45,453 nt of DNA from Nitrospiraceae bacterium (GTDB lineage Bacteria; Nitrospirota; Nitrospiria; Nitrospirales; Nitrospiraceae), in NCBI GenBank assembly GCA_900299245.1, contig OMJA01000082.1:1-45453 (forward strand), written 5' to 3'. The position numbers and the translations under genes were made by a program. How positions within the stretch are numbered: the first letter of the stretch is position 1; each line of letters begins with the position of its first letter. Shown piece after piece: positions 4,023 to 40,524 of the stretch. The notes beneath the pieces were generated by a model that saw only the letters and a list, made by a program, of their open reading frames with translations, did not search any database and was not told the origin of the DNA.

Positions 4023-4139
4023 GAGGTGAACGGCTTGGTTTCAGTGCTCGCTGCCCGCGCGCCCAAGATCAAATCATATTTTCAAATGAGAGACGGCGCT
4101 CGGTCAATGCGCGCAATGTAAAACCAACCCGTTCACCTC
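4023..4139. repeat. ~117-bp imperfect palindromic intergenic element
   Basis: Arms GAGGTGAACGGCTTGGTTT (4023-4041) and AAACCAACCCGTTCACCTC (4121-4139) are reverse complements with one mismatch. Confidence 0.75.
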
Positions 4140-36302: not shown

Positions 36303-36665
36303 ATGGTCGCGCTGATCCTGGCCGACGCCGTACTCCTGCTGCATCTGGCATTCGTGCTGTTCGTCCTCTTTGGCGGACTCCTGGCGTTGAAATGGCCGAA
36401 TGCGATCTGGCTGCATCTGCCGGCAGCCGCGTGGGGCGTCTTCGTCGAATTCAGCGGTTGGGTCTGTCCCCTCACCCCCTTGGAGATCCGGCTCCGCGAA
36501 CAAAGCGGCGCGAGCGGCTACACGGGCGACTTCATCGGACACTATCTCCAGGCCCTTCTCTACCCGGAAGCCTTAACGCCTCAGATTCAACTTATTCTTG
36601 GTGTGGTTGTCGTAGGAGTGAATGTGACCATCTACGGCTGGCTCTGGCGAACCAATCGTCTGTGA
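36303..36665 (+). CDS. DUF2784-type membrane protein
   Basis: LADAVLLLHLAFVLFVLFGGLLAL...VEFSGWVCPLTPLE.RLR. Confidence 0.88.
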   Translation: MVALILADAVLLLHLAFVLFVLFGGLLALKWPNAIWLHLPAAAWGVFVEFSGWVCPLTPLEIRLREQSGASGYTGDFIGHYLQALLYPEALTPQIQLILGVVVVGVNVTIYGWLWRTNRL

Positions 36666-36760
36666 CGCGAGAAAGCCTCGCACTAGAAAACAACTCCGTA
36701 AACAAAGACTCCCGTTTCCATTTTCAGAGGTTCGTACGATGTGCGGGTTATCCAGCACTG

Positions 36761-37291
36761 TCACGGCTTCCCCGCAAGTGGACCCACGGCCAATACTCCG
36801 GTGTCCGGATCACTGGCGCGCTGCATGAATGAGGCTTGAAGTGTGGCGTCCTTCTTCACCTCGGTGAAATACTTTTCAGATGCCATGACCAGCGCAGCGT
36901 AGAAGTCCTCAGCATTCAAAACGGTGAGACCACCGTCCTGCGTCATATGAAGATGCCCATTGTGATGAGTTAGCTTGTAAGGTCCCGGTGAGAAACCGTG
37001 GACTGCAGCATTCCTGAGCTTCCACAGAACATCCGCGTGCGCGTGGTACGCCTTGGGAAAGTATCCAAGGATGAAGCTCTTGAAGCGAGGCCCGTTCTTC
37101 TCGCCGGGTTTCAAAAAGCCACCTAGCGCTTCAACCGCAGTAAGCGTGCAAATAAATGAGAGAAATGCGGCATCGTCGTTTAGTGTGCTAGGGATGCCAC
37201 CCAAGTAGATTCGCGTGTAGTTGGCGTGGACATGCGAGATCAACTCGTCTGTACTCATTAGGGCATCCCTGTCGTCGGTGCTGAATAGCAC
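36761..37291 (-). CDS. uncharacterised protein with HEPN-like Rx4H motif
   Basis: VLWKLRNAAVHGFSPGPYKL; GTG start at 37291 or a downstream ATG. Confidence 0.7.
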   Translation of the reverse strand: MLFSTDDRDALMSTDELISHVHANYTRIYLGGIPSTLNDDAAFLSFICTLTAVEALGGFLKPGEKNGPRFKSFILGYFPKAYHAHADVLWKLRNAAVHGFSPGPYKLTHHNGHLHMTQDGGLTVLNAEDFYAALVMASEKYFTEVKKDATLQASFMQRASDPDTGVLAVGPLAGKP

Positions 37292-37309
37292 GTAGGCTGG
37301 AGCCGAGTG

Positions 37310-37825
37310 TTAGATTGCATCTGATGCATGCCACTGTTCCAGAAGTTCATTCGCTTTTTCATTGATGTACTCCTCACTCACTCCATATTTCTTCACGTGA
37401 GCTTCCGAGAGGGCACCAATTTCCCGCAAGAGCGAGAGCGATTCCTCTGCCATCCCATCAAGCCGAACTAGAAGACGTTGCATATCCGGATCACTGTGAA
37501 TCGCACTCCTACTGTCAGTCCGTGATCGGTGAACTAGCCAATTGCGCTCCGACAATAGACTTGTGAAGCGGGGCTCAAGCTTGGAATTCAATAATCCAGA
37601 TTTTGTAAGCTGATGGACGGTTTCACCGAACGTTTTTTTCTTCGCTTTTTCCTCAAGGACATTCCCAGCATCCAACCCCATCCCTTTTGGGGCCTGCACC
37701 ACCAAAACAAAATATTGAGCGGATACGCCCTCCAACTCCTGAATTTGCCACAAAGCAAAGCCAACCCGCTGTGTTATTACAGAGAGGCGTTCTGCTTTCT
37801 CTAACTGGTGCGCAAGGTCGTTCAT
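37310..37825 (-). CDS. uncharacterised protein with HEPN-like Rx4H motif
   Basis: SLLSERNWLVHRSRTDSR; 18 bp upstream of the next minus-strand ORF; ATG 37825 (TTG 37837 also possible). Confidence 0.7.
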   Translation of the reverse strand: MNDLAHQLEKAERLSVITQRVGFALWQIQELEGVSAQYFVLVVQAPKGMGLDAGNVLEEKAKKKTFGETVHQLTKSGLLNSKLEPRFTSLLSERNWLVHRSRTDSRSAIHSDPDMQRLLVRLDGMAEESLSLLREIGALSEAHVKKYGVSEEYINEKANELLEQWHASDAI

Positions 37826-38127
37826 GCAATCTAACAATGTTTAGCCCAATCCACATCCCCACATCAGAGCCGGATCGACCAACTCTGTCGGTATAACATG
37901 CCGCCACGACTCATAGACCATACGCCTTGACCGCTGCTGTTTCAATTGGTTACGAAGGTAGAATGATTTATCACTGGTTCATTTGCGGACCGGCATCACG
38001 CCTGTCCTTGCACTATCCTACAAGCTACGGACACCCGCCTTCGCATCCAATCGGCTCCCGGTTGACGTAGATCGGGAAGGGTTGGTACATAGACCCATTC
38101 TGTGACCATTTCGACCATGAGGACGCC

Positions 38128-39315
38128 ATGCCGATAGATGAAATCGAGAAAAAAGTCAGCGACCGTTACGCCAAAGCCGCCAGCACGGGCGAGCAGATGT
38201 GCTGCCCGACCAGCTATGACATGGCGAACCTCAAATCGTTCATTCCGGAAGAAGTCCTCAAGATTTCGTATGGGTGCGGCACCCCGGCAGGACTGAACAC
38301 CGTCAGCGCGGGAGAGACCGTTCTGGACATCGGATCGGGCGGCGGGATCGACTGTTTCGAGGCTTCGCGGCTCGTCGGCCCCACAGGCCATGTGATCGGC
38401 ATCGACATGACCGACACGATGCTGGAGATCGCCCGCAAAAATGCGGTCGTGGTCGCCACCAACCTCGGCTACCCCGCGTCCAACGTCGAGTTCCGCAAGG
38501 GGATGGCCGATGCCATGCCGGTTGCCGACAACACCATCGACCTGATTATTTCGAACTGCGTGATCAACCTGGCTCCCGATAAGCGGAAAGTCTTTCGTGA
38601 GATGTTTCGGGTGGCCAAGCCGGGCGGGCGTTTCACCATCTCCGACATCGTCGCGGACCAGCCCGTGCCGCAATATCTGGCGCATGATGCGGAGAAATGG
38701 GGCGACTGTTTATCCGGCGCCCTGACGCTGACCGAGTACATGGCCGGGATGACTGAAGCCGGCTTTGTCGGCCTGCATCTGATCAAGTCGTCCCCCTGGC
38801 AACGGATCGACGGTATTCATTTCTTCTCCGTCACCTTGACCGGCTACAAACTGCCCGCTGAAACTTCGACACGCCCGGCGCGCTACGCGACGCTTCGCGG
38901 CCCCTTCAGCCGCGTGGTCGATGAACGAGGCACGACCTATATGCGCGGGATTCCGCAGCCGCTTACGCCTGAGCTGGCGCTCTTACTGAGCCGGCCGCCC
39001 TTCGCATCGCTGTTTATTTTCTCCGAGGCTCCCCAGTGGCTCAACCGGGAGGACCCGCGGTGGACGGCCGTGCTGCCTGAACAGGTGCCCTGCTCCTGGA
39101 AAGGCGACTACGCGCTCCTGGCCGGGCCGTTTCTGGAAGCGCACGATGATGATCAGCATGTCTTCCGGCGCGGCGAGCCGGTTGAAATCTGCTCGAAGAC
39201 GCTCAACGTCCTCGCGACGGAGAGCTATGCGCCGCACTTCGCCATTCTCAACCGGGCCAGCCAGCCCGTGGGCGGCGACGCGGTGAATTGCGCGCCGACA
39301 GGCGGATGCTGTTAG
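38128..39315 (+). CDS. arsM: arsenite S-adenosylmethyltransferase
   Basis: CCPTSYDMANLKSFIPEEVLKISYGCGTP, VLDIGSGGGIDCFEASRLVG, SNCVINL.PDKRKVFREMFRV; C-terminal GGCC. Confidence 0.9.
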   Translation: MPIDEIEKKVSDRYAKAASTGEQMCCPTSYDMANLKSFIPEEVLKISYGCGTPAGLNTVSAGETVLDIGSGGGIDCFEASRLVGPTGHVIGIDMTDTMLEIARKNAVVVATNLGYPASNVEFRKGMADAMPVADNTIDLIISNCVINLAPDKRKVFREMFRVAKPGGRFTISDIVADQPVPQYLAHDAEKWGDCLSGALTLTEYMAGMTEAGFVGLHLIKSSPWQRIDGIHFFSVTLTGYKLPAETSTRPARYATLRGPFSRVVDERGTTYMRGIPQPLTPELALLLSRPPFASLFIFSEAPQWLNREDPRWTAVLPEQVPCSWKGDYALLAGPFLEAHDDDQHVFRRGEPVEICSKTLNVLATESYAPHFAILNRASQPVGGDAVNCAPTGGCC

Positions 39316-39349
39316 CATGCTTCATAGAACAGAACAATATCCATCTCAT

Positions 39350-39471
39350 CAGGATGCTCAAAAAGGCTGTCCAGCAAGGCCGCAGCGAGCAGAGAGGCGA
39401 GGCGTACGCAGCGGTACGTTGAGCCTCTGTGCGAAGCGAGAACGCCGCTGGCGGACTTTTTCAGCATCCTG
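39350..39471. repeat. ~122-bp imperfect palindromic repeat between arsM and arsS
   Basis: CAGGATGCTCAAAAAG... / ...CTTTTTCAGCATCCTG outer arms and central cGTACgcagcgGTACg. Confidence 0.8.
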
Positions 39472-39483
39472 CTAAAGGCGACG

Positions 39484-40524
39484 ATGGCGCTTACCCTCTT
39501 AGGCCGCCACAATCCCCTCGCCTCTTCGACTGAACAGCTTCGCATTCTCGACGAGACGGCCGGGATCACCCCGTTTGCCACCCGTCTCACCGAAGCCGGG
39601 CTGCCTTCCCTTCAGGCCTCCGGCATCACAGTCTTTCAACTTAACGTCGGCAAACTCTGCAATCAGACCTGCCGTCATTGTCACGTGGACGCGGGGCCCG
39701 ACCGCACGGAGAGCATGTCGCGGGAAACGGCGGAACTCTGCATCGCGGCGCTGGCTCAGACGGACATTCCCACGGTCGACATCACGGGCGGGGCGCCGGA
39801 ACTGAATCCGAATTTCCGCTGGCTGGTCGAACAGGCGCGTGCGCTCGGCCGCCATGTCATGGACCGCTGCAATCTGTCGGTGCTACAGATTCCGTCGCAG
39901 TCCGACCTCGCGGAGTTTCTCGCCGCGCATCGCGTGGAAGTGGTCGCCTCGCTGCCCTACTACCGGGCGAGCCAGACGGACGCGCAACGCGGCGAAGGGA
40001 TCTTCGACAAATCCATCGAGGCGCTTCGCCTCTTGAACACACTCGGGTATGGCCGGGCGGACAGCGGGCTGCTGCTCAACCTGGTGCATAATCCGGTCGG
40101 CGCCTTCCTGCCGCCGAAGCAGGAGGCGATCGAAGCGCAATTCAGGAAAGAACTCCGCACCAGGCACGGCGTGGAGTTCAATCACCTCTACACGATTACG
40201 AATATGCCGGTGAGCCGGTTTCTGGAGTTCCTGGTGGAGAGCGGAAACTATGCCGGCTACATGGAACGGCTCGCCAATGCCTTCAATCCCGCTGCCGCAG
40301 CAGGCGTCATGTGCCGCTCGACGCTGTCGGTAAGTTGGGACGGCGGACTCTACGACTGCGACTTCAATCAGATGCTGGATCTGCCGCTCGGATACGGCGC
40401 GCCGGCGCATATCCGCGACTTCGATCTTGTGCGTCTGCATCACCGGCGGATCGTGACGCGCAATCATTGCTACGGCTGCACGGCCGGCTCCGGCTCATCC
40501 TGCGGCGGCGCCGTCACGCCCTAA
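39484..40524 (+). CDS. arsS: arsenosugar biosynthesis radical SAM protein
   Basis: QLNVGKLCNQTCRHCHVDAGP (CxxxCxxC), DITGGAPELNPNFRWLV, C-terminal CYGCTAGSGSSCGG. Confidence 0.93.
   Translation: MALTLLGRHNPLASSTEQLRILDETAGITPFATRLTEAGLPSLQASGITVFQLNVGKLCNQTCRHCHVDAGPDRTESMSRETAELCIAALAQTDIPTVDITGGAPELNPNFRWLVEQARALGRHVMDRCNLSVLQIPSQSDLAEFLAAHRVEVVASLPYYRASQTDAQRGEGIFDKSIEALRLLNTLGYGRADSGLLLNLVHNPVGAFLPPKQEAIEAQFRKELRTRHGVEFNHLYTITNMPVSRFLEFLVESGNYAGYMERLANAFNPAAAAGVMCRSTLSVSWDGGLYDCDFNQMLDLPLGYGAPAHIRDFDLVRLHHRRIVTRNHCYGCTAGSGSSCGGAVTP

Follow-up and report, generated by a model that had tools for sequence, protein, structure and literature searches.

Genes of the islet and the slot that holds it

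The window, by which we mean the whole 45,453-nucleotide stretch of Nitrospiraceae DNA that was analysed, contains a low-GC islet carrying two small genes, P0002 and P0001, a short inverted repeat that brackets the first of them, and one copy of a repeat that is dispersed through the genus (Table 1). The preliminary description had placed two adjacent minus-strand ORFs here, and this is confirmed: they span 36761-37291 (176 aa, GTG start) and 37310-37837 (175 aa, TTG start) and lie 18 bp apart, with their motif codons at the positions claimed. Alignment with relatives favours the internal ATG starts given in Table 1, and with these the gap between the genes is 51 bp.

Table 1. Positions of the genes, motifs and repeats of the islet in the window
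Feature	Position	Strand	Remarks
Lineage-specific low-GC islet	36666..38107		between DUF2784 gene and ArsM-like methyltransferase gene
P0001, probable HEPN protein, sequence-unrelated to P0002	36761..37258	-	165 aa from ATG 37258; alternative GTG 37291
RNAAVH motif of P0001	36998..37015	-	R and H invariant in relatives, N variable
3' arm of inverted repeat, ATGCAATCTAACA	37308..37320	-	over P0002 stop
ATCTAAC (R'', RYYYAAC) in 3' arm	37309-37315	-	overlaps P0002 stop codon
P0002, HEPN-family protein	37310..37825	-	171 aa from ATG 37825; alternative TTG 37837
RNWLVH, predicted HEPN RNase active-site motif of P0002	37529..37546	-	invariant, 12 aligned sequences
5' arm of perfect 13-bp inverted repeat, TGTTAGATTGCAT	37824..37836	-	at P0002 ATG
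GTTAGAT (R', GTTRRRY) in 5' arm	37829-37835	-	just upstream of P0002 start
Genus-wide dispersed repeat copy (attC-like, 3' end CTAAACATTGTTAGAT)	37829..38015	-	directly upstream of P0002; outer boundary approximate

The GC content over the two genes is indeed lower than that of their neighbours (0.512, against a window mean of 0.611); it falls in the lowest 1% of segments of equal size, and the 12 lowest segments all lie at this islet. Sister genomes match the window DNA up to 36568-36668 and again from 38057-38118, and the islet is therefore lineage-specific. The earlier suggestion of acquired DNA is supported. The description of the flanks as long and noncoding is half right, as they measure ~95 bp on the left and ~290 bp on the right. 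A search of the other 58 genomes of a first sample of relatives found no match to P0001 or P0002, and an Rfam search found none within the islet.

Elsewhere in the genus the gene order methyltransferase, TfoX_N, ORF, DUF2784 is largely kept, and the content that follows DUF2784 varies from genome to genome. As named from the sequences themselves rather than from a family search, this cargo consists of haem-type or other proteins, a Crp-like gene, an IS with restriction-modification genes, a RelE/HigA-like pair, or almost nothing. The slot measures 0.3-1.4 kb in genomes where the ArsM-like gene follows DUF2784 closely.

Proposed assignment of P0002 and P0001 to the HEPN superfamily

What does the motif shared by the two proteins signify? 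Of the 48 window ORFs, 23 contain the Rx4H pattern, which also arises in 23-31% of the shuffles of P0001 and P0002; by itself the pattern is therefore no evidence of HEPN membership, and we dropped it as such. RNxxxH is rarer: 0.8-1.1% of the shuffles of either protein contain it, as do four of the 48 window ORFs, P0001 and P0002 among the four. Conservation of the arginine and histidine in homologues, the lack of which the preliminary description had named as refuting its reading, was found for both proteins: ERNWLVH is invariant in 12 aligned P0002-family sequences with identities down to 25%, and the R and H of the P0001 motif are invariant in six aligned sequences, the N being kept in four of the six.

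For P0002, several comparisons point the same way. Eight of the 12 family members match DUF4145 below its gathering score (E < 0.1; best 2.8e-4, over the motif region), and there are further sub-threshold matches to HepT-like (three members) and DUF3644 (one member); all three are HEPN families or overlap them (PMC3710099). When hhalign was used to align the P0002 profile with the HepT and DUF4145 domains of related genomes, both comparisons scored above all 60 column shuffles, that with HepT giving E 4e-5 and a score of 34.6 against a shuffle maximum of 17.0. The AlphaFold model is all-helical (pLDDT 90), and a Foldseek search with it of the PDB and viral models returned generic helical bundles at low TM and no HEPN structure. 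Taken together, the invariant RNWLVH, the sub-threshold family matches and the HepT profile score uphold the HEPN reading of P0002, and its assignment to an undescribed HEPN family is well supported by sequence comparison.

P0002 relatives are present in Accumulibacter, Sideroxydans, Nevskia, other Gammaproteobacteria, Desulfobacteraceae and Legionella, on a Thauera plasmid, on two viral contigs (L013 and L090) and in three more genomes of the window's phylum. A very distant relative (L102:2957-3484) has RNFLSH in place of the motif, and its ends carry an inverted repeat of 9 bp.

P0001 has few relatives: one in G162 at 48% identity and, at greater distance, others in four further genomes of the phylum, with none in plasmids, phages or viral contigs. 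One further weak match is to a protein that also matches HEPN_Apea below the cut-off. The top four PDB matches of the P0001 model (pLDDT 80) are the HepT/HEPN toxin chains 5yep, 7ae6, 7bxo and 6m6w, at E 0.2-0.9, values at which no single match is significant. The HEPN reading of P0001 is thus favoured by the invariant R and H and by the identity of its four best structural matches, and is qualified by the individual weakness of those matches. From sequence and model together, P0001 is probably a member of a HEPN family different from that of P0002. Beside P0001 relatives we find a 367-aa protein with similarity to type II REases (L015:278-1378; PADLOC E 1e-15), encoded ~90 bp upstream, and a TIR-like or nucleoside deoxyribosyltransferase-like protein (L019:482-1399), encoded ~12 bp downstream.

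Neither protein matches a HEPN model of Pfam or NCBIfam above the cut-off, and PADLOC recognises neither. One might argue that both are non-HEPN helical proteins in which Rx4H arose by chance, given how common the motif is among the window ORFs and given that the Foldseek search of P0002 retrieved no HEPN structure. We regard this as most improbable in view of the invariance of the motif in relatives, the profile matches above all shuffles, and the HEPN toxins at the top of the P0001 model's matches.

The closest known relation is to HepT (DUF86, PF01934), the toxin of the type VII HEPN-MNT toxin-antitoxin systems. In the hhalign alignment its RNxxxH stands in the same register as that of P0002, and the best match of the P0001 model, 5yep, is the SO_3166/SO_3165 structure, followed by other HEPN/MNT toxins. 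In contrast to HepT-MntA, however, P0001 and P0002 have no adjacent MNT nucleotidyltransferase, lack the tyrosine of the RX4HXY motif (the sequences are RNWLVHRSR in P0002 and RNAAVHGFS in P0001), and score below the HepT cut-offs. Unlike DUF4145 proteins (PF13643), P0002 has no fused REase or helicase, and its score is below gathering.

Integron-type core sites and a dispersed repeat

The perfect 13-mer that brackets P0002 is the sole inverted repeat of at least 12 bp in the islet. Its arms contain sequences that conform to the integron core consensus GTTRRRY / RYYYAAC (PMC12901181), such that P0002 has an R' before its start and an R'' at its stop that are mutually complementary, the arrangement of an integron cassette. 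Among the window ORFs only P0002 has both cores; among 105 ORFs of related loci none does, and the longest bracketing repeat there is 8 bp. Similar marks accompany some relatives of P0002. One (L101) belongs to an array of small ORFs, most of whose boundaries carry attC sites, a second (L007) is flanked on either side by attC-type sequence and has a bracket of 10 bp, and two more (L003 and L008) have an R' before the start; the relatives in L005, L006, L009-L012, L090 and L102 have no cassette marks. An integron integrase was found above the cut-off in four of 59 genomes searched, and none was found above it in the genome of the window (88% complete).

Two rules were used to scan for attC sites. 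The first, which is very stringent, returned two sites only; the second, which returns 0-4 matches per 45 kb in shuffles, did not call the flanks of P0002 in the window because each attC takes its R' from the cassette that follows. An inverted-repeat hairpin at 4025-4137 of the window passes the loose attC-like scan and is likely a chance occurrence, the shuffles giving 0-4 of these.

P0001 has no R' or R'' core sites at its ends, and the ~51 bp from the P0002 stop to the P0001 ATG leave no room for a full attC. We therefore set aside P0001 as a separate cassette; the sequence GCTAAC...GTTAGC, found upstream of the relative in L095, is no more than suggestive. It is possible that P0001 is nevertheless a cassette itself; it may stand behind a truncated site, or may have come by another route.

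The repeat directly upstream of P0002 is found in 37 of the 79 genomes of the genus, in up to three copies each. It is ~125-185 bp long with the 3' end CCTAAACATTGTTAGGC, and in most cases a single ORF, unrelated to those behind other copies, comes within the next 40 nt. Copies that lie in tandem ~1 kb apart occur (L154, L163, L155, L177 and L179), and in two genomes (G094 and G030) fragments of IntI lie at most 100 bp from the repeat. An R'' at the stop was found for 10 of 32 ORFs behind the repeat and 2 of 105 background ORFs (Fisher p 7e-6), and a bracket of at least 8 bp for 10 of 32 and 1 of 105, respectively; both comparisons are approximate, as the end windows differ slightly. We read the repeat as a lineage-type attC. 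As for the hairpin of a canonical attC, single-strand folding of the window copy gave a structure no more stable than those of its shuffles (z -0.57), and RNAalifold of the repeat alignment gave weak structure and weak covariation.

The cargo behind repeat copies includes a CAP12/Pycsar TIR protein, DUF2971, DUF5677, a trypsin-like protein and another RNxxxH protein. In L168 the ORF behind the repeat (483-1466) is of the CAP12/Pycsar TIR type (PF10137, E 2e-29), and in L178 an ORF that begins 3 nt behind a repeat copy (119-667) has the HEPN-like RNQIAH and no Pfam match.

Separate cargo or a single system

Why do P0002 and P0001 stand side by side? The preliminary description considered them the best candidate for a two-gene conflict module. 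In the available flanks, P0001 relatives were found beside P0002 relatives in 0 of 15 cases, the reverse search likewise found none, and the neighbours elsewhere differ in kind between the two sets of relatives. The adjacency is thus not conserved, an outcome that the preliminary description had itself named as speaking against its proposal, and since no relative shows the pair we reject a conserved two-gene module. That the two genes adjoin is more simply explained by the integron-cassette marks around P0002. Because at least one of the genes carries such marks, P0001 and P0002 are probably separately acquired cargo rather than the halves of one new machine.

We nevertheless weighed the possibility that the two form one dedicated system, for instance a HEPN-HEPN RNase of heteromeric build or an effector whose partner has the HEPN fold. 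The genes are on the same strand, 18-51 bp apart, and both motifs are intact. There is also a precedent for a two-HEPN operon, in which genes of the Bxe_C0808 family are joined with AbiU2 (PMC3710099), and the P0002 relatives in L090 and L009 are closely trailed by a gene with a HEPN-like motif. This explanation seems to us improbable, however, as relatives of P0001 and P0002 are never neighbours in the flanks searched, the integron core sites bracket P0002 and exclude P0001, and the second genes in L090 and L009, which are of other families, match no HEPN model. Like the Bxe_C0808-AbiU2 pair, P0001 and P0002 would be two distinct HEPN genes in one operon, but their pairing is unconserved, and neither matched AbiU2 in a Pfam scan at E values up to 10. 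A more elaborate version we consider remote: P0002 and P0001 would form an antitoxin-free heteromeric RNase whose active site lies where proteins of two unrelated HEPN families meet, and cassette capture would have joined different P0002-like proteins to different second HEPN proteins, of which the tandem genes of L090 and L009 may be a hint. The trailing gene in L090 (5538-6350) begins ~28 bp downstream of the P0002 relative and encodes NRHAVMHG, and that in L009 (5601-6530), directly downstream, encodes VNWLTH, a degenerate HEPN-like motif in which the R is lost.

Could one HEPN protein instead neutralise the other, as in a toxin-antitoxin pair? Two small tandem genes of similar size would fit, and non-catalytic HEPN domains exist (PMC3710099). 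Yet the R and H are kept in both proteins, such that neither resembles an inactivated partner, the partnership is unconserved, and no nucleotidyltransferase is nearby, all of which make this very unlikely. The absence of an MNT antitoxin noted earlier is confirmed, the neighbours being the DUF2784 protein and the methyltransferase; with neither an MNT nor the RX4HXY tyrosine, we also rejected an MNT-HEPN toxin-antitoxin system.

More credible than these, though still unlikely, is that P0001 and P0002 are HEPN-fold proteins with a regulatory or RNA-binding role, similar to MtlR, and not conflict toxins. They are single genes without an antitoxin, and the neighbourhoods of P0002 relatives are mixed rather than uniformly defensive. 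Strict conservation of the catalytic motif argues against such a role, as does a patchy, horizontal distribution that takes in a plasmid, viral contigs, a cassette array and several phyla.

We propose, with moderate confidence, that P0002 and P0001 are different single-gene, HEPN-type mobile cargo, P0002 being an integron cassette, and that both are probable RNase effectors of defence. P0002, with R' before its start and R'' over its stop, would have been inserted as a cassette behind the lineage-specific attC-like repeat, and P0001 would be a second cargo gene adjoining it. Each protein would most likely be a metal-independent HEPN endoribonuclease whose catalytic R and H are those of RNxxxH. 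Other HEPN RNases act as homodimers, and P0002 and P0001 probably do so as well, a state that we infer for them by analogy. Once triggered, they may cut cellular or phage RNA, giving an abortive-infection type of defence that would require no cognate antitoxin. The RNase activity, the trigger and the defence role are suggested by analogy with the HEPN literature (PMC3710099) and with reports of integron antiphage cassettes, as cited in PMC12444791; phage defence is probably the role of both.

HEPN proteins have been found as integron cassettes before: PDB 3jrt is one (Anantharaman et al. 2013, PMC3710099), although neither P0001, P0002 nor either profile matches it in sequence. According to the citations in PMC12444791, chromosomal integron cassettes carry antiphage genes (Darracq 2025, Getz 2025). 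As described there, these single-gene cassettes are likewise standalone, of unknown function and proposed to act in phage defence; in contrast to them, P0002 belongs to a different lineage, no integrase was found in its own genome, and its defence role is a prediction.

Two undescribed HEPN families, that of P0001 a probable one, both unrecognised by Pfam, NCBIfam and PADLOC, join the pool of candidate RNase effectors. One of them is tied to integron cassettes, in a genus that has an attC-like repeat in front of many single-gene cargoes. If this is confirmed, antitoxin-less RNase effectors are also part of the stock of chromosomal integrons other than the well-studied ones of Vibrio, and the genus repeat offers a handle for finding more of them. 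Finally, we note that outside the islet, at 38128-40524 of the window, the ArsM-like methyltransferase gene is followed by that of a radical SAM / DUF3641 protein, the two being probably a pair of an organoarsenical pathway.
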